In this document: in pieces, positions 55,002-61,496 of the stretch
How the letters are laid out: each line of letters opens with the position of its first letter
Position numbering within the stretch: the stretch's first letter is position 1
Origin: Streptosporangium sandarakinum
GTDB lineage: Bacteria; Actinomycetota; Actinomycetes; Streptosporangiales; Streptosporangiaceae
Direction: 5' to 3'
Assembly (NCBI RefSeq): GCF_013409935.1
Contig: NZ_JACCCO010000001.1
Coordinates: 2,046,001 to 2,110,000 of the forward strand
DNA length: 64,000 nt
Made by a program: the position numbers and the translations under genes
Notes under the pieces: generated by a model
What the model saw: only the letters and a program-made list of their open reading frames with translations
Databases searched by the model: none
What the model was told of the DNA's origin: nothing

Positions 55002-56645
55002 GTGAACGGGGTGAACGGGATCGACACTCGACTGTTAGCGGGCCGCTACCGGCTGCTCAACCCGCTCGCCGAGGGCGGGATGGGCACCGTCTGGCTTGCC
55101 GCCGACGAGATGCTCGGCCGTGACGTGGCGGTCAAGGAAGTACGGCTGCCGCCCGACCTCGACCCCGCCCGGCGGCAGGAGCTGTGCGACGCGGCGCTGC
55201 GCGAGGCCAACCTGGCGGCCAGGATCAAGCACCCGTCCATCGTCACCGTCCACGACGTGATCGTCGAGCAGGACCGGCCGTGGCTCGTCATGGAGCTGCT
55301 GTCCGGCGCGTCGCTTGAGCAGACGGTCCGCGACGGGCGTCCGCTGCCGGTTCGCCAGGCCGCCAGGATCGGCGTGAGCGTCGCGGGCGCGCTCATCGCC
55401 GCGCACGCGGCCGGGGTGGTGCACCGGGACGTCAAGCCCGGCAACGTCTTCCTCACCAGGACCGGCCGGGCCGTGCTGACCGACTTCGGCATCGCCGTCG
55501 TCGAGGACGAGGCCACCGCGGCGCAGACCGGCCGCCTGGTCGGCTCGCCCAACTACATCGCCCCGGAACGGCTGCGCGGCGAGCGGGGCGGGCCCGCCTC
55601 GGACCTGTGGTCCCTGGGCGCCACGCTCTACTTCGCCGTCGAGGGCCTGCCGCCGCACCCGGCGGACACCCCCGTCTCGGCGATCAGCCGGGTGCTGACC
55701 GAGCCTCCCCGGCCGCCTGAGCGGGCCGGCGCCCTGGGCCCGCTGCTGCTCGGCATGCTCGCCTCCCGGCCCGAGGACCGGCCGTCCTTCGACGCGGTCG
55801 CCCAGGCCCTGCGCGAGCTCGCCGCGGGCCGGCCGGCCGCCGTGCCCCCCGGCCCGTCCCCCACCCCGCCCTTTTCCCCGGCCTCGGAACGGGACGCCTT
55901 CCCGCGGCACGGGAAGGGGCCGGAGCCCGCCCAGGCCCCCGTCCCCGCCGCGCGCGTGACGGACCGTCCCGGAGTCCGGGTCGCGCTGTGGGCGGCCGCC
56001 GAGGTGGCGGCGATCGCGGCCGTCATCGGGGCGACCATGGGCGTGACCCACCTCACCGGCGCCTCCGCCGCCGCCCCGGTCGAACCGGCCCGGCTGAGCG
56101 GGAAGCCGGGCGCCTTCGCCGTACCCGTGGACCTGTGCAAGCAGATCACCGCGGCCGACCTCAGGGAACTCCTGCCGGCGGTGAACGCCAAGGGGGTGCC
56201 GCTCAACACCGGCGGCTGCGCGTGGGCGGTCCCCGGGGTCGGCCTGCGGATCGACCCCCTCGGCAACGGCCAGGCCAAGCCGTGGGGCAAGAGCCCCCGT
56301 GAGGCCCACGAACTGCTGGTGAACCAGCGCAACGGCACCGTGCCGACCGGGACGATCCTCTGGAGCTGGTCGGAGATCAAGGCCGCCCCCCGGTCCACCC
56401 GCACCACCGGCCCGCTGCCGGTGAAGCCGGTCGGGGACGAGGCGTTCGGCTACGACTACTACGAGAACCGGAAGACCGGCCGCCTGGAGCAGAGCCACGT
56501 GGTCTTCCGCGTCGACAACCTGGTGCTGGACGTCGGATACACGGTGGTGGACGGCGGCAAGGACGCCCCGGCGATCCAGGCCGGCGCCCACACCGCCGCC
56601 GCCTGGATCGCGAACGCGCTGAACAAGCAGAAGGCGAGCGGATGA
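55002..56645 (+). CDS. Membrane Ser/Thr protein kinase (active) with extracellular two-Cys domain
   Basis: A 547-residue PknB-type kinase. All catalytic elements are present: Gly loop (AEGGMGTVWLA), Lys45 (DVAVKEV), HRDVKPGN with Asp143, DFGIAVVED with Asp161, APERL, and DLWSLGATLYFAVEG. A Pro-rich juxtamembrane stretch precedes one membrane helix (WAAAEVAAIAAVIGATMGV). The ~180-residue extracellular domain has Cys in VDLCKQITAADLREL and GGCAWAVPG, then DEAFGYDYYENR and VVFRVDNLVLDV. The start is GTG 55002 (GTG 55011 possible). Codon 12 is TTA, a candidate bldA-type control point for the whole overlapping cluster. Confidence 0.9.
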   Translation: MNGVNGIDTRLLAGRYRLLNPLAEGGMGTVWLAADEMLGRDVAVKEVRLPPDLDPARRQELCDAALREANLAARIKHPSIVTVHDVIVEQDRPWLVMELLSGASLEQTVRDGRPLPVRQAARIGVSVAGALIAAHAAGVVHRDVKPGNVFLTRTGRAVLTDFGIAVVEDEATAAQTGRLVGSPNYIAPERLRGERGGPASDLWSLGATLYFAVEGLPPHPADTPVSAISRVLTEPPRPPERAGALGPLLLGMLASRPEDRPSFDAVAQALRELAAGRPAAVPPGPSPTPPFSPASERDAFPRHGKGPEPAQAPVPAARVTDRPGVRVALWAAAEVAAIAAVIGATMGVTHLTGASAAAPVEPARLSGKPGAFAVPVDLCKQITAADLRELLPAVNAKGVPLNTGGCAWAVPGVGLRIDPLGNGQAKPWGKSPREAHELLVNQRNGTVPTGTILWSWSEIKAAPRSTRTTGPLPVKPVGDEAFGYDYYENRKTGRLEQSHVVFRVDNLVLDVGYTVVDGGKDAPAIQAGAHTAAAWIANALNKQKASG

Positions 56646-58246
56646 ACGACCCAGACGTCACCCGGCCCCAGGGCAGGCGCGGCCGCAGGCACGCCGCCCC
56701 CGAGGCGGAGCCCGCCGCCGGGGCGGCGCTGCCCGCCGTGCTGGAGCAGTCCCCGGGTGAGCAGATCTCGCTGGAGCACGCGGTCGCGCGGGGCGGGCCG
56801 ATGGCGCCGCGCCAGGCCGCGGCGGTCGGCCTGGCCGTACTGGACCAGATCGTCGCCGTGCACGGCCGGGGGACGCTCCACGGTGACGTGCGGCCTGGCT
56901 CGGTGCTGCTCGGCCCGAACGACCGGGTCACCCTCCTCGGGCCGACCTTCCGGTCGCCGACCTTCACCGCCCCCGAGGGGGTGACGGGCCCGGCCGCCGA
57001 CCTGTGGTCGCTCGGCGCGACCGTCTACACCGCCGTCGAGGGCCGCCCGCCGGCCCCCGGCGGGTCGCTGGACAACGCCGGCCCGCTCGGGCCGATCCTG
57101 TCCCACCTGCTGTCCGGGGACCCGGGGCGGCGGCCCGACCCGGGGCCGCTGCGCAACGTCCTGCTGGAGATCTCCCTGACCGGCGCGGCTCCGGCGACGC
57201 CGTTCCAGCCGCCCGTCCCGGCCCAGGCCCTCCCGCCGGCCCCCGGTACGGCGCAGCGGGACGCCCAGGGGTCCCCGGCGGGCCCGCCGCCCGCGCTTCC
57301 CACCGGCTCCGGACCGGCGGGACCGGCCCGGGAGCAGGCGGGTCAGGGGAACGCGGTCGCGGACCCGCCGGACGACGACCCCGCCGCCAACCCCGAGGCG
57401 ACCGCGCCGCGCCCGGCCATCACCGGTATGGGACCGGCGCCGGTGACGGCCGCCCCCGGCGTGCCCGTCCCGCACGAGGCGGGCCAGGGTCCGGGGGCGC
57501 CGGAGGCGGCGTCCGGGTCCGGGCGGGCGTCCCGCTCCCGGCGCCAGGAGGGTCCGACCGGCCCGACCGAGTACGCCCGGGGCAGGTCCGGGGTGCTGGT
57601 TCCCAAGCCGATCGTGGCGCTGACCGGCGTCCTGGTCGTCGGCATGGCGGCCGTCATCGGCTACCTGCTCGCCTCGGCGCCCGGCGACCCCGCCGCGGAC
57701 GAGCCGGTCGCGTCCGCCTCCGCCGGGCCCGGGGGCCGGTTCGCCGCCCCGCCCCGCGCCTGCGACATGCTCGACGAGAAGCAGGCCGGGGAGCTGGTGC
57801 CGGGCTTCCGCAGCTCGGAGGTCGAGCCCGGCGTCTGCGACTGGCTCAACCAGCAGGACTGGCGCAAGCCGAGCACGCAGAAGTACGACCTGCAGGTGCG
57901 GCTGGTCGCCATGAAGCAGAGCGACTCCGGCGTGCAGCGGGCCAAGGAGTACCTCGCGGGCAAGAAGAAGGACTTCGTCAGGGACGCCGAGTTCGCCACC
58001 CCCAAGCCCGCCCCGCCCGGCGACCTGAAGGGCATCGGCGAGGAGGCGTTCACCACCGGCAAGTACAGCAAGATCAACCTTTACGGCGGGTCGTACAAGG
58101 TGAGCGTGGTCTTCCGGGTCAGCAACCTGATCGGCGAGGTCGAGTACGAACAGGGTGGCGTCGAGAAGGACGCCGAGGGCAGGCTCGCCGCGGGGGCGCA
58201 GAAGGCCGCCCGCTGGGTCGTCGAGTCCCTCAGGACCAATGGCTGA
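56642..58246 (+). CDS. Membrane pseudokinase with extracellular two-Cys domain
   Basis: A 534-residue relative of the kinase before it, overlapping it by ATGA. It lacks the whole ATP-binding N-lobe (no Gly loop, no catalytic Lys). HRDVKPGN is replaced by HGDVRPGSVLL and DFG by LLGPTFR, so it cannot phosphorylate, although AADLWSLGATVYTAVEG keeps the C-lobe fold. A long Pro/Gly/Ala linker, one membrane helix (PIVALTGVLVVGMAAVIGYL) and the extracellular domain follow (RACDMLDEKQAGELVPG, VCDWLN, IGEEAFTTG, VVFRVSNLIGEVEY). Probable partner or regulator of the neighbouring kinases. Confidence 0.88.
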   Translation: MNDPDVTRPQGRRGRRHAAPEAEPAAGAALPAVLEQSPGEQISLEHAVARGGPMAPRQAAAVGLAVLDQIVAVHGRGTLHGDVRPGSVLLGPNDRVTLLGPTFRSPTFTAPEGVTGPAADLWSLGATVYTAVEGRPPAPGGSLDNAGPLGPILSHLLSGDPGRRPDPGPLRNVLLEISLTGAAPATPFQPPVPAQALPPAPGTAQRDAQGSPAGPPPALPTGSGPAGPAREQAGQGNAVADPPDDDPAANPEATAPRPAITGMGPAPVTAAPGVPVPHEAGQGPGAPEAASGSGRASRSRRQEGPTGPTEYARGRSGVLVPKPIVALTGVLVVGMAAVIGYLLASAPGDPAADEPVASASAGPGGRFAAPPRACDMLDEKQAGELVPGFRSSEVEPGVCDWLNQQDWRKPSTQKYDLQVRLVAMKQSDSGVQRAKEYLAGKKKDFVRDAEFATPKPAPPGDLKGIGEEAFTTGKYSKINLYGGSYKVSVVFRVSNLIGEVEYEQGGVEKDAEGRLAAGAQKAARWVVESLRTNG

Positions 58247-59738
58247 TCCGGGCCTTCCCGTCCTCGCGGGCCGCTACCGGGCGATCGACCGCCTCGGCGC
58301 GGGTGGAATGGGCGTGGTCTGGCGCGCCCGGGACGAGCTGCTGCACCGCGAGGTGGCGATCAAGGAGGTCAAGCTCGGCCCCGGGCTGCCGGAGGCGCAG
58401 CGCGCCGAGATGCGCGAGCGCACCCTGCGCGAGGCCAGGGCCGCCGCCCGGCTGGGCCACCCGTCCATCGTGACCGTGCACGACGTCATCTCCCAGGACG
58501 GCCGGCCGTGGATCGTGATGGACCTCATCCGGGGCCGGTCCCTGCAGCAGGTGGTCCGCGCCTCCGGGCCGATCGACCCGCGGCGGGCCGCCGCCATCGG
58601 GGTGGCCGTGCTGGACGCGCTGGCCCTCGCGCACAGCCGGGGCATCATGCACCGCGACGTGAAGCCGGCCAACATCATGCTGGCCGACGACGGCGGGGTG
58701 CTGCTGACCGACTTCGGCATCGCCACGCTGGAGGGCGACGTCCAGCTCACCTCCCCCGACGCGCTCGTCGGCTCCCCCGGGTACATCGCCCCGGAGCGGC
58801 TGCGCGGCACCGGCGACGGCCCCGCGGCCGACCTGTGGTCGCTGGGCGCGGCCCTCTACACCGCCGTCGAGGGGCGCGGGCCGTTCCACCGGGGCTCCTC
58901 CGCCGCCACCCTCGGCGCGGTGCTCACCGAGGAGACCCCGGTCCCCGCGCGGGCGGGCGAGCTGGCCCCGGTGCTGCTCGCCGTACTGGACAAGGATCCC
59001 CGGCGGCGGCCCGGGGAGGCCGCCCTGCGCGCGGCCCTGCAGCGGGTGGCCCGGGGGCTGCCCGCCGGGCCGCTCTTCCCCGAGGAGCGGACGGGGCCGG
59101 CCCGGACGGCGAGGCGGGGCCGCACCGGTCTCCTCGTGGGGGCGGGACTGGCGGTGGTGGCCGCCGCGGTGGCCGGAACCGTGGTGCTGACCTCCTCGGA
59201 CGACCCCGCGAGGTCCGCCCCCAGCGGGCCCGACCCGCGCGCCGGGCGGTTCACCACCGCCCCCGCCCCCTGCTCCCTGCTGACCCCCGCCCAGGTCCGG
59301 GCTGCGGGCCCGACCGGCAAGCCGCTCCCGATGGGCGCCATGGACGGCCACGGCCCCTCGTGCACCTGGGACGGCGGGCCGGGCGCTCCGCAGGTCCGCG
59401 TCACCGTCACCCACCACAAACCCGTGCCGGGGAAGACCGCGCCGGAGACGGCGCGGGCGTTCTTCGCCGCCGACCGCACCAAGACCGCCGCCGACGCCGG
59501 AACGGGCCTCGTCGGCTCGGTCGGCCCGCTGCGCGACACGGGCCGGATCGGCGCCGAGGCGTTCGCCTTCGACCTGGCCTCCCTCGACCGCGTCTACTCG
59601 ACGGTCCACTTCCGGGTCAGCAACGTGCTGGTCGAGGTGGACGTGTCGCGGAAGGGAAAGCGGCCCGACGCCGCGCTGCGCGGGAACGCGCTCACCGTCG
59701 CGCGGCAGATCGCCGAGGAGCTGAACAGCCGTGACTGA
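58239..59738 (+). CDS. Membrane Ser/Thr protein kinase (active) with extracellular two-Cys domain
   Basis: A 499-residue kinase, ATG 58239 overlapping the previous stop by eight bases. Complete catalytic set: GAGGMGVVWRA, Lys42 (EVAIKEVKL), HRDVKPANIM with Asp140, DFGIATLEG with Asp158, APERL, DLWSLGAALYTAVEG. One membrane helix (GLLVGAGLAVVAAAVAGTVV), then the extracellular domain (APCSLLTPAQVRAAGPTG, SCTWDGG, IGAEAFAFD, VHFRVSNVLVEVDV). More similar to the first kinase than to housekeeping PknA/PknB, and without PASTA repeats. Confidence 0.92.
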   Translation: MADPGLPVLAGRYRAIDRLGAGGMGVVWRARDELLHREVAIKEVKLGPGLPEAQRAEMRERTLREARAAARLGHPSIVTVHDVISQDGRPWIVMDLIRGRSLQQVVRASGPIDPRRAAAIGVAVLDALALAHSRGIMHRDVKPANIMLADDGGVLLTDFGIATLEGDVQLTSPDALVGSPGYIAPERLRGTGDGPAADLWSLGAALYTAVEGRGPFHRGSSAATLGAVLTEETPVPARAGELAPVLLAVLDKDPRRRPGEAALRAALQRVARGLPAGPLFPEERTGPARTARRGRTGLLVGAGLAVVAAAVAGTVVLTSSDDPARSAPSGPDPRAGRFTTAPAPCSLLTPAQVRAAGPTGKPLPMGAMDGHGPSCTWDGGPGAPQVRVTVTHHKPVPGKTAPETARAFFAADRTKTAADAGTGLVGSVGPLRDTGRIGAEAFAFDLASLDRVYSTVHFRVSNVLVEVDVSRKGKRPDAALRGNALTVARQIAEELNSRD

Positions 59739-61065
59739 GCAGACCCGCGCGCCCAGCAACCTGCTGGCCGGACGCTACCGCCTGCTGGAGCGCCGCGACC
59801 GCACCGGAACCGCCTGGCGCGCCCGCGACGAGGTGCTCCACCGCGACGTCACCGTCTCGGAGGTGCGGCTCCCGCCGCCGGGCCCGCACCGGGACTGGCT
59901 CCTCGGCCAGGTACGGGCCGCCGCCGACCTGCGCCACCCCGGCGTGGTCACCCTGCACGACGTGATCTCCGCCCCGGACCGGATGTGGCTGGTGCTGGAG
60001 TCGATCGACGGCCGCTCGCTGCTGCAGACCGTACGCGCCGAGGGGCCGCTCGCCCCCGAGCGGGCGGCCGATGTGGGCCTGCGGGTGCTGGACGCGCTGA
60101 CCGCCGCCCACGGCAGGGGCGTCCGCCTGTCCGCCACCCCCGACACCGTGCTGCTCGGCGCGGACGGCCGGGTCGTGCTGACCGGCGTGGCCGGCCCCGT
60201 GTCCGCCGACGACCTGCGGGACCTGGGCGCCACCCTGTTCACCGCCCTGGAGGGCCGGGCCCCGGCCACGGGCTCCCTCCCGCCGCTGGTGGGCGGCATA
60301 CCCCTGGCGGACCCCGATCCCACCACCGGGACGGTGACGCACGGCCCGCTCGCGCCGCTGGTGGAGGGGCTGCTGGCGGCCGACCCGGCGCACCGCCCCG
60401 ACGCCACCTCGGTCCGCCTCACGCTGGAGCGGATCGCCCCCGCCCCTCCCGCGTCCCGGCGCAGGCACCTCATCACGGCCGCGGTGGCGGCCGTCGCGCT
60501 CCTGGCCGGCGCCGCGTTCTGGCTCTGGCCCCGCGCCTCCGGCCCGGCCACCCCGCCGATCACGCTACCCGCCTCCTTCGCCACCGCCCCCGACCCCTGC
60601 TCTCTGATCTCCAAGGAGCAGGCGGCCGAGCTGACCCTGACCGCCGAGCCGCGGCCCGTGGGGAAGACCGAGTGCGACTGGGGCACCGAGGACAGCAGCC
60701 TGCCGGAGAGCCTCCAGTACACGCTCACCGTCGAGGTCCTGCGCTACCCGACGGACGAGAGGGCCCACGCGGACCACGCGCGCTTCATGGCCTCCGAGGC
60801 GAAACAGGACAGGACCTCGGCCGGCGTCCCGCTGCGGCGGGTCAGGCCCGCGACCCCGCAGTCCGGCATCGCGACGGAGGCGTACACCTTCACCACCACC
60901 AACGGGATCACCTACAACAGCGGCGTGGTCTTCCGCGCGGCCAACCTCGTGGTCGCGGTCCAGTACCAGCGCGGCGGGGGCGCCGAGGACCCCGGCGACC
61001 GCACCCGCTCGGGATCGTTGCGGGCGACCCGGTGGGTCCTGGAAGCCCTGTCCCGGGCGCGCTGA
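59731..61065 (+). CDS. Membrane pseudokinase with extracellular two-Cys domain
   Basis: A 444-residue pseudokinase, GTG 59731 overlapping the previous stop (GTGACTGA). The N-lobe is kept in outline (LLAGRYRLLERRDRTGTAWR), but the Gly loop is degenerate, the catalytic Lys is Ser (DVTVSEV where the partners have DVAVKEV), HRD is replaced by RLSATPDTVLL and DFG by TGVAG. One membrane helix (ITAAVAAVALLAGAAFWLWP) and the extracellular domain (PDPCSLISKEQAAELTLT, ECDWGTED, IATEAYTFT, VVFRAANLVVAVQY) follow. Distinct in decay pattern from the pseudokinase at 56642. Confidence 0.88.
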   Translation: MTEQTRAPSNLLAGRYRLLERRDRTGTAWRARDEVLHRDVTVSEVRLPPPGPHRDWLLGQVRAAADLRHPGVVTLHDVISAPDRMWLVLESIDGRSLLQTVRAEGPLAPERAADVGLRVLDALTAAHGRGVRLSATPDTVLLGADGRVVLTGVAGPVSADDLRDLGATLFTALEGRAPATGSLPPLVGGIPLADPDPTTGTVTHGPLAPLVEGLLAADPAHRPDATSVRLTLERIAPAPPASRRRHLITAAVAAVALLAGAAFWLWPRASGPATPPITLPASFATAPDPCSLISKEQAAELTLTAEPRPVGKTECDWGTEDSSLPESLQYTLTVEVLRYPTDERAHADHARFMASEAKQDRTSAGVPLRRVRPATPQSGIATEAYTFTTTNGITYNSGVVFRAANLVVAVQYQRGGGAEDPGDRTRSGSLRATRWVLEALSRAR

Positions 61066-61206: not shown

Positions 61207-61301
61207 CGCCCGGAACCCGGGGGGCGGGCCCGCTCGTTGGACGGGCGACGCAGAATGGACCAAAGGCGGGGCGCCGGCTCCGCGTTCGGAGGATGTTGAG
61301 G

Positions 61302-61496
61302 ATGTCGCCCGTCCAGAAGTACGCCATCGGGGCCGCCGCGGTGATCGTGCTCGCCCTGATCCTGCCCCTGCCGAGCGTGGTCACCTGGTTGATCATCCTG
61401 GGCGTCGTCGCCGCCCCGGTGGTCGGCTACCTCATGCTCGACCCGTCCCAGCGCGCGCGGCTCCGCCGCGCCCGCAGGCGCGGCATCGGCCGCTGA
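61302..61496 (+). CDS. Small two-span membrane protein
   Basis: 64 residues: MSPVQKYAIGAAAVIVLALI, LPLPSVVTWLIILGVVAAPV, ending with a strongly basic tail (RARLRRARRRGIGR). Two membrane helices with the Arg-rich end inside. The start is ATG 61302, nine bases after GGAGG; ATG 61293 is too close to that site. No known function. Confidence 0.65.
   Translation: MSPVQKYAIGAAAVIVLALILPLPSVVTWLIILGVVAAPVVGYLMLDPSQRARLRRARRRGIGR

Follow-up and report, generated by a model that had tools for sequence, protein, structure and literature searches.

Receptor kinases of the PknB type are activated via back-to-back dimers of their N-lobes, and in receptors of the HER3/ERBB3 type a catalytically dead subunit may act via a live partner. 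A cluster of related bacterial kinases is presented by SCO4775-4779 of S. coelicolor: these five eukaryotic-type Ser/Thr protein kinases (eSTPKs) are tied to sporulation and spore wall synthesis, and are separately transcribed with gaps of 93-173 bp between the genes (PMC4416010). Receptors with a polymorphic recognition part are represented by ComP of the ComQXPA system (PMC6334282) and TraA of the myxobacteria (PMC6372800). Here we describe an operon of four adjoining membrane kinase and pseudokinase genes, K1 to K4, from Streptosporangium sandarakinum (assembly GCF_013409935.1, contig NZ_JACCCO010000001.1, positions 2,046,001 to 2,110,000); "the window" denotes this whole stretch of 64,000 nucleotides. 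Computational comparison with related genomes documents the order and catalytic states of the four genes, the loss of the kinase domain from K2, the dimer residues that K4 retains, the purifying selection acting on dead kinase parts and, as the most surprising element, the exchange of the sensor domain carried by the last pseudokinase, of which our searches of open-licence papers listed no earlier report.

Organization of the operon

In the operon a kinase, a half-kinase, a second kinase and a pseudokinase follow each other on the same strand with overlaps of 4, 8 and 8 bases, and each is linked through one membrane helix to a DUF3558-like sensor. Its components are:

55002..56645, + strand: K1, membrane Ser/Thr kinase with intact catalytic motifs (kinase 55041-55811, helix 55980-56045, sensor 56109-56642)
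56642..56645, + strand: ATGA overlap of the K1 stop and the K2 start, kept in relatives, with putative translational coupling
56642..58246, + strand: K2, half-kinase (N-terminal peptide 56642-56683, C-lobe remnant 56765-57172, HGD 56879-56902, disordered linker, helix 57608-57673, sensor 57734-58243)
58239..59738, + strand: K3, membrane Ser/Thr kinase, intact (kinase 58269-59048, helix 59127-59189, sensor 59244-59735)
59731..61065, + strand: K4, pseudokinase (kinase part 59770-60435, beta-3 Lys to Ser within 59848-59865, helix 60469-60528, sensor 60574-61062)
60574..61062, + strand: K4 sensor domain, exchanged among relatives as a cassette

K1 and K3 possess the Gly loop, the VAVKEV/VAIKEV motif, HRDVKP and DFG, and with 144.2 and 155.4 bits against Pkinase (PF00069, cut-off 31.7) they qualify as live Ser/Thr kinases. 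Their scores against the PASTA kinase family NF033483 (226.5 and 222.9 bits, from the kinase part only) lie well under its cut-off of 450 and place them outside that family. K2 lacks the N-lobe and begins at the hinge; HGDVRPGS replaces HRDVKP, DFG is absent, and the match to PF00069 (24.9 bits) is confined to the C-lobe and stays under the cut-off. The short peptide ahead of its C-lobe is conserved among 16 orthologues, and K2 of S. pseudovulgare is 96% identical to that of the window. K4 has both lobes but reads VTVSEV (Lys to Ser), has lost HRD and DFG along with most of the activation segment, and at 31.1 bits falls barely under the PF00069 cut-off, which together with the lost catalytic residues leaves it outside the family. 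AlphaFold models show a kinase-like fold and a sensor for K4 (mean predicted local distance difference test [pLDDT] 85.3, predicted template modelling score [pTM] 0.53) and a C-lobe and a sensor for K2 (mean pLDDT 72.6, pTM 0.41), with high local confidence for the sensor in both. A preliminary description, made from this DNA alone, had reported the same overlaps and the alternation of kinases with pseudokinases, a second gene without N-lobe and with HGD, and a fourth with Lys changed to Ser and HRD and DFG lost; reading frames, motifs and PF00069 scores confirm each of these. The 7.65 Mb genome of S. sandarakinum holds 53 kinase places by PF00069 search.

Exchange of the K4 sensor

Exchange was analysed in selected sets of 19 and 21 genomes (denoted by handles such as G001), one per species. 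Across 19 genomes of the inner group, the median pair identity of the K4 sensor is 0.33, versus 0.72 for the K4 kinase part, and its correlation with K1/K3 kinase identity is 0.29, versus 0.69-0.93 for the other parts, a yardstick that itself contains the K1 and K3 kinases. At identity thresholds of 0.40-0.45 the K4 sensors fall into four classes (10, 6, 2 and 1 genomes), the largest of which splits in two at 0.50, with further splitting at 0.55. These classes cut across close relationships: in four of the seven closest pairs (G007/G014, G004/G005, G001/G011 and G095/G131) the K1/K3 kinases are 90-93% identical and the K4 sensors, of differing class, only 26-30%, while the remaining three pairs share a class (82-90%). 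Class II is common to G004, a Streptosporangium, and G123, a Planobispora, at 62% identity; the window genome and S. pseudovulgare (G009) are of the same class, with sensors 88% identical.

The edges of the exchanged segment are sharp in two pairs. In G007/G014, DNA identity stays at 88-98% as far as codon 260, the helix included, and is 38-65% from there to the stop; in G095/G131 the break lies near codon 240. In both, the alignment resumes within about 100 bases past the stop, and the downstream identity in these two clean pairs is 85% over 1430 and 87% over 1455 bases, with a dip to 48% at bases 421-480 in G095/G131. The control pairs G081/G167 and G123/G147 show no such break, with 72-100% identity in every interval of the scan. 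Hidden paralogues were considered as a source of the classes and rejected, because in the two pairs identity is lost within a single reading frame and recovered further downstream. In G001/G011 and G004/G005 the DNA after K4 is wholly different, so that the right edge cannot be placed; in G001/G011 identity falls from codon 181 onward, ahead of the helix. When the downstream regions of loci L050, L053, L054 and L060 were viewed together, the first 150 bases after K4 looked alike by eye in G001 and G005, both of K4 class I. No linked, co-varying ligand gene was seen beside the K4 sensor in G007/G014 and G095/G131.

Trees agree with the distances. For the K4 sensor, the approximately unbiased (AU) test rejects the sister pairs G007/G014 (p 1e-39), G001/G011 (p 4e-52) and G095/G131 (p 7e-4), and class II, a starred clade in the K4 sensor tree, is rejected when imposed on the K4 kinase, on the K3 sensor and on the K2 sensor, although these p-values are optimistic inasmuch as the tested groups were named after the distances had been seen. 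The K4 kinase part recovers the same three pairs as sisters, with supports of 100/99, 60/87 and 99/98, respectively. For the K3 sensor, G095 and G131 are not sisters in the best tree and their togetherness is not rejected (p 0.059), nor is the group of G001, G004, G005 and G011 (p 0.095). On a tree of the K1 kinase and sensor, K2 sensor, K3 kinase and K4 kinase, the K4 class changes eight times, where three is the minimum, and six of nine sister pairs with assigned classes differ in class. For G007 and G014, synonymous divergence (dS) amounts to 2.0 in the K4 sensor, as against 0.125 in the K4 kinase. Taken together, these results show the K4 sensor to be an exchanged cassette, with classes crossing genera. 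The preliminary description had envisaged one extracellular signal for all four proteins; a single fixed signal is unlikely because the K4 sensor switches class between sister genomes, whereas the other sensors follow the locus far better.

Conservation of the four-gene arrangement

The core sample comprises 31 genomes with a clear K2, namely 15 of Streptosporangium and 16 from ten other genera (11 genera in all); G008, in which the operon is split over contigs, lies outside it, and the Planobispora locus L003, which is that of G123, was counted once. A strong K2 is present in 15 of the 16 genomes of the genus, the sixteenth being G008. More widely, a K2-sensor profile was run on 200 genomes of the family, a subset of a larger group, scoring 15 candidates per genome; 60 of the 200 had a match at E up to 1e-6, and in 26 of these E was below 1e-60.

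The order K1-K2-K3-K4 is intact in 28 of the 31 genomes, the exceptions being G003 without K4, G012 with a broken K4 remnant and G029 with only K1 and K2 at the locus. Because the order recurs so widely, the four-gene arrangement is more than chance. It is real and older than can be seen from the window alone; the linkage and order given in the preliminary description, for which a synteny check had been proposed, hold across ten genera. The 4-base overlap of K1 and K2 is found in all 16 loci checked (13 as called and three after start correction) and the 8-base overlap of K2 and K3 in 15 of 16. The 8-base overlap of K3 and K4 is not general: it occurs in four of 16 loci with both genes, these 16 including one with a K4 remnant, and the rest have gaps of 9-165 bases as called.

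The surroundings are conserved as well. Genes for DUF3817 and SURF1 proteins stand beside the kinases in 24 of the 31 fetched loci, and in the other seven they are not within the flank covered. Directly downstream of K4 the window contains one further recurrent gene:

61293..61496, + strand: small membrane protein, 67 aa, matched in 24 other loci

It is kept even where K4 (G003, G012) or both K3 and K4 (G029) are missing. Since these neighbours recur, the locus is for the most part inherited in place.

Six loci (G018d, G088, G106, G153, G172 and G210) show a second arrangement: two live kinases and, behind them, a membrane protein that has no kinase domain and carries two sensors in tandem. 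This arrangement probably arose separately, because in the 67-row sensor tree described below these tandem sensors are placed on the K3 side, on long branches. As it again totals four sensors, like the K1-K4 operon, it fits the view that sensors rather than kinases are what is counted. In Nonomuraea typhae (L007, 5638-8283), a K2-like half-kinase with HGDIRPGN stands behind a degenerate-looking kinase match in one long stop-to-stop frame.

Catalytic states and selection

Catalytic state was scored at the Lys, the alpha-C Glu, the HRD Asp, the Asn and the DFG Asp; the broken K4 of G012 is excluded from the 28 K4 kinase rows, and its sensor stretch is included among the 29 K4 sensors and in one sensor tree. 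K3 is complete in all 30 cases and K1 in 28 of 31, the exceptions being G019 (Lys to Arg), G029 (Lys to Arg and HRD to HRG) and G015 (DFG to GFG). K4 is complete in none of 28: its beta-3 position is occupied by S (14), T (8), A (5) or K (1), the HRD Asp position by A, T, G, S or L, and G099 alone retains both the Lys and the DFG Asp. A C-lobe remnant of K2 is present in 27 of the 31 genomes, with the HRD Asp retained in 23 of these and the full catalytic set never kept; in the other four (G019, G105, G135 and G156) the kinase domain is gone and the linker, helix and sensor remain. The constant feature of K2 throughout is its sensor, which is taken as the conserved part because these four genomes keep it, with the helix, in the absence of a kinase domain. 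Two live and two dead members, as originally described, is thus accurate for K3, K2 and K4, and for K1 in most genomes, K1 itself being dead or altered in some.

The ratio of nonsynonymous to synonymous substitution rates (dN/dS), from simple Nei-Gojobori counts without error bars on pairs within the genus, is 0.21-0.66 for the dead kinase part of K2 (six pairs) and 0.24-0.47 for that of K4 (five pairs). Live kinases give 0.04-0.38, linkers 0.29-1.85 and the K4 sensor 0.39-0.90. These values place the dead kinase parts of both K2 and K4 under purifying selection. In K4 the equivalents of PknB L33 and D76 are retained in 27 and 28 of 28 rows, respectively, and the beta-3 Lys in one; we take this retention as support for a role as dimer partner, not as proof.

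The sensor domain family

All four sensors carry C, CxW, GxGxEAF-like and VxFRxxNL motifs, and C24, C54, W56, A84 and R138 are invariant in a 16-row alignment of all sensor types. Both cysteines are retained in all K1 (31/31), K2 (31/31) and K3 (30/30) sensors and in 26 of 29 K4 sensors. The idea of one shared sensor domain therefore survives as a homologous family with these invariant residues and not as one sequence, the window sensors being only 21-29% identical to that of K3.

A relationship to DUF3558 (PF12079, cut-off 34.1), which had been suggested for checking with sequence profiles, was borne out, with window scores under the curated cut-off: K1 has 17.5, K3 26.7 and K4 21.2 bits, and K2 has no match at E up to 1 as a whole protein and 14.0 bits with the sensor alone. 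With a ceiling of E 0.01 the family matches 21 of 25 K4 orthologues, the best at 1.2e-10; with a ceiling of E 1 it matches five of 12 K2 sensors, the best at 0.0002. The sensors are distant DUF3558 relatives, below formal membership. A sequence search of solved structures with the K2 sensor gave no convincing match (best E 1.8), and the best 50 Foldseek rows for the K4 and K2 models are apparently kinases or kinase complexes, with no relative of the sensor fold besides DUF3558.

A combined sensor profile (E up to 1e-8) matches at least 22 of 197 genomes of the class, nine of the same family and 13 of one other genus; with 17 candidates scored per genome, these counts are lower bounds. The best matches in the other genus are frames of 289-435 aa and one of 850 aa, and we infer that they are mostly DUF3558-type lipoproteins. 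The matches outside the family (G350, G057, G384 and others of group f20 g41) are mostly short frames, often near neighbours, and perhaps represent the source of the kinase sensors.

Origin of the dead and live members

In a sensor tree of 67 selected rows from the loci (LG+C20), the K1, K2 and K3 sensors of four-gene loci form starred clades and the K4 sensors a clade with support 87/85. More distant clusters can be placed against these: their gene 1 joins the K1 sensors (100/99), and their gene 2, live in G018, G094 and G130 and dead in G030 and G138, joins the K2 sensors (78/88, not starred). A K3-side group (99/95) unites live genes of G018, G030 and G138 with gene 3 of G094 and G130, which is dead. 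The order of states accordingly varies, being live-live-dead-dead in G094 and G130, live-dead-dead-live in G030 and G138, and three live before the contig end in G018. The AU test rejects placement of the dead gene 3 of G094/G130 with K4 (p 0.011), and does not reject its placement outside the K3-side group (p 0.083).

Catalysis was most likely lost repeatedly, in different members. Since the K4 of G099 keeps the Lys and DFG Asp and 23 of 27 K2 remnants the HRD Asp, K2 and K4 are unlikely to descend from a dead common ancestor; on the simplest view their ancestor carried all three residues, and the duplicated unit, whether a pair or not, was therefore most simply alive. Two results count against this view: a tree with the live gene 2 apart from the dead K2 and K4 types is not rejected at 0.05 (AU p 0.075), and the best tree splits K2 and K4 from K1 and K3, with weak support (49/77; 70 in a larger tree). 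The duplication of a ready-made kinase-pseudokinase pair, as first proposed, is disfavoured as unlikely by the retained residues and the live gene-2 relatives, K2 sensors grouping with the intact kinases of G018, G094 and G130, in two of which it is a K3-type member that is dead instead.

A kinase-domain tree (FastTree, full domain), in which three "outgroup" rows (OUTL060) are genes of the G011 locus and were ignored, was tried for orthology and set aside. In it the dead domains cluster, including gene 3 of G094 and of G130, whose sensors sit on the K3 side; we read this clustering as probable long-branch attraction, and therefore used the sensors for orthology.

A proposed receptor and its alternatives

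We propose that K1-K4 constitute a hetero-oligomeric Ser/Thr receptor kinase, with K3 and K1 as its signalling members and K4 as a specificity subunit that can be exchanged; we judge the chances of this proposal to be even. The four proteins would be co-translated and lie in the membrane with their related DUF3558-like sensors outside. K3, usually with K1, would signal by PknB-type back-to-back dimerization and trans-phosphorylation; K2 would be a sensor co-receptor, its kinase part vestigial or a scaffold; and K4 would be a pseudokinase dimerization adaptor, bringing an exchangeable, variable sensor into the complex and giving the complex its specificity, such that exchange of the K4 sensor would be a change of specificity. 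Physical assembly, signal transmission and the binding of variable ligands by the exchanged sensor are predicted features of this complex.

Several results weigh against this proposal. K2, being without an N-lobe, cannot use the PknB dimer face and would join only via its helix, sensor or C-lobe; for that C-lobe, dN/dS is as high as 0.66 in one pair. Equivalents of L33 and D76 are also carried by outgroup kinases (7/11 and 11/11), and as many as 26 of the 85 K4 N-lobe columns, these two among them, are conserved to at least 0.95. Rapid divergence is seen in the K3 sensor too (median identity 0.52, with raised dS in two pairs). The catalytic loop of K1 is further altered in G007 (HRDVN) and G014 (HRDVQ), where its Lys is changed, and in G013 (HHDVK), and K1 may thereby have decayed further. 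Two of the 31 genomes have no K4 or a broken one (G003, G012), and one (G029) lacks both K3 and K4 at the locus, which speaks against the "obligate" partnership of the preliminary description; the G029 locus (L095) has a catalytically dead K1 together with K2 and no K3.

An extension of this proposal, possible but on balance doubtful, is that K4 is a polymorphic recognition subunit: a limited set of sensor types common to many species and recombined as cassettes would define who or what is recognised, with the pseudokinase adaptor plugging any type into a conserved K1-K2-K3 core.

Among the alternatives, the best surviving, which we nevertheless think unlikely, is that the genes encode four separate receptors sharing an operon by descent, with K1 and K3 as independent homodimers and K2 and K4 as decoy or dominant-negative sensors titrating ligand. 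The low identity of the paralogous sensors to that of K3 in the window operon would suit it, as would the loss of K4, and once of K3 too, without loss of the remainder; but K1-K2-K3 order and overlaps are kept across ten genera, K4 retains the PknB-type dimer residues, and the six loci with two live kinases and a tandem-sensor protein arrive again at four sensors.

Exposed domains that form classes and recombine are typical of surface antigens, and the K4 sensor, with its separate classes and its sharp recombination edges in two pairs, could by that token vary to escape phages or antagonists that bind it, the receptor's own ligand staying constant. We regard this as rather improbable: the clear pattern is limited to the K4 sensor, the K2 sensor tracks the other parts in both trees and distances and the K1 sensor in distances, and the cytoplasmic part of K4 is under constraint. 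Least probable by a clear measure is neutral decay, with the K2 and K4 kinases on their way out and the K4 sensor differences due to drift and occasional recombination, for though K4 is absent or broken in G003 and G012, the K2 kinase part is missing in four genomes, linkers are near neutral and the K4 sensor has the dN/dS given above, the dead kinase parts stay at 0.66 or less in 11 of 11 comparisons, both K4 sensor cysteines are mostly kept, and class II sensors are up to 62% identical between genera where those of sisters are 26-30%.

Comparison with known systems

The proposed hetero-oligomeric receptor resembles the PknB/PknA-type receptor kinases in its single membrane helix and outer domain and in that PknB is the best solved match of K3, of the K4 profile and of the K2 C-lobe model. 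It differs in the four-gene operon of mixed live and dead members, in that K1 and K3 are not PASTA kinases by NCBIfam, and in that Foldseek with the K4 model places AMPK chains above bacterial PknB. The HER3/ERBB3-type receptors differ from it in being of an unrelated lineage with an unrelated outer domain.

Among described bacterial pseudokinases, K4 shares traits with those of the ActPs3 family of MviN (MurJ): all catalytic motifs are degraded (none intact in the window K4, full set in 0 of 28), and an activation-loop deletion is combined with a helix after the kinase domain (near residues 245-266). It differs from MviN as presented in PMC12599244 in having a variable DUF3558-like sensor and in sitting among live kinases; the ActPs2 pattern (beta-3 Lys to Arg, HRD Asp to Asn) is not seen in K4. 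A term search of that pseudokinase review found no mention of Streptosporang-, tandem or extracellular. SCO4775-4779 is likewise a cluster of related kinases, but its genes are gapped, whereas those of K1-K4 overlap or nearly so, and we found nothing on pseudokinases or sensor exchange there in the available part of PMC4416010. More generally, among the papers listed by our searches of the open-licence literature there was no recognisable report of this operon, of a DUF3558-type kinase sensor or of sensor exchange in a bacterial Ser/Thr kinase.

The operon offers a natural comparison, with related sensors side by side, catalysis lost in different members and lineages, and one dead member with a swappable sensor. 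If the proposed receptor is real, it would be a bacterial system in which simple domain swaps test both pseudokinase function and receptor specificity. It would work like ComP (PMC6334282) and TraA (PMC6372800), receptors with a polymorphic recognition part, without being a member of either system: unlike ComQXPA with its comQ and comX, the two clean pairs show no co-varying gene beside the K4 sensor, and the variable sensor is here carried by a pseudokinase within an operon of Ser/Thr kinases.

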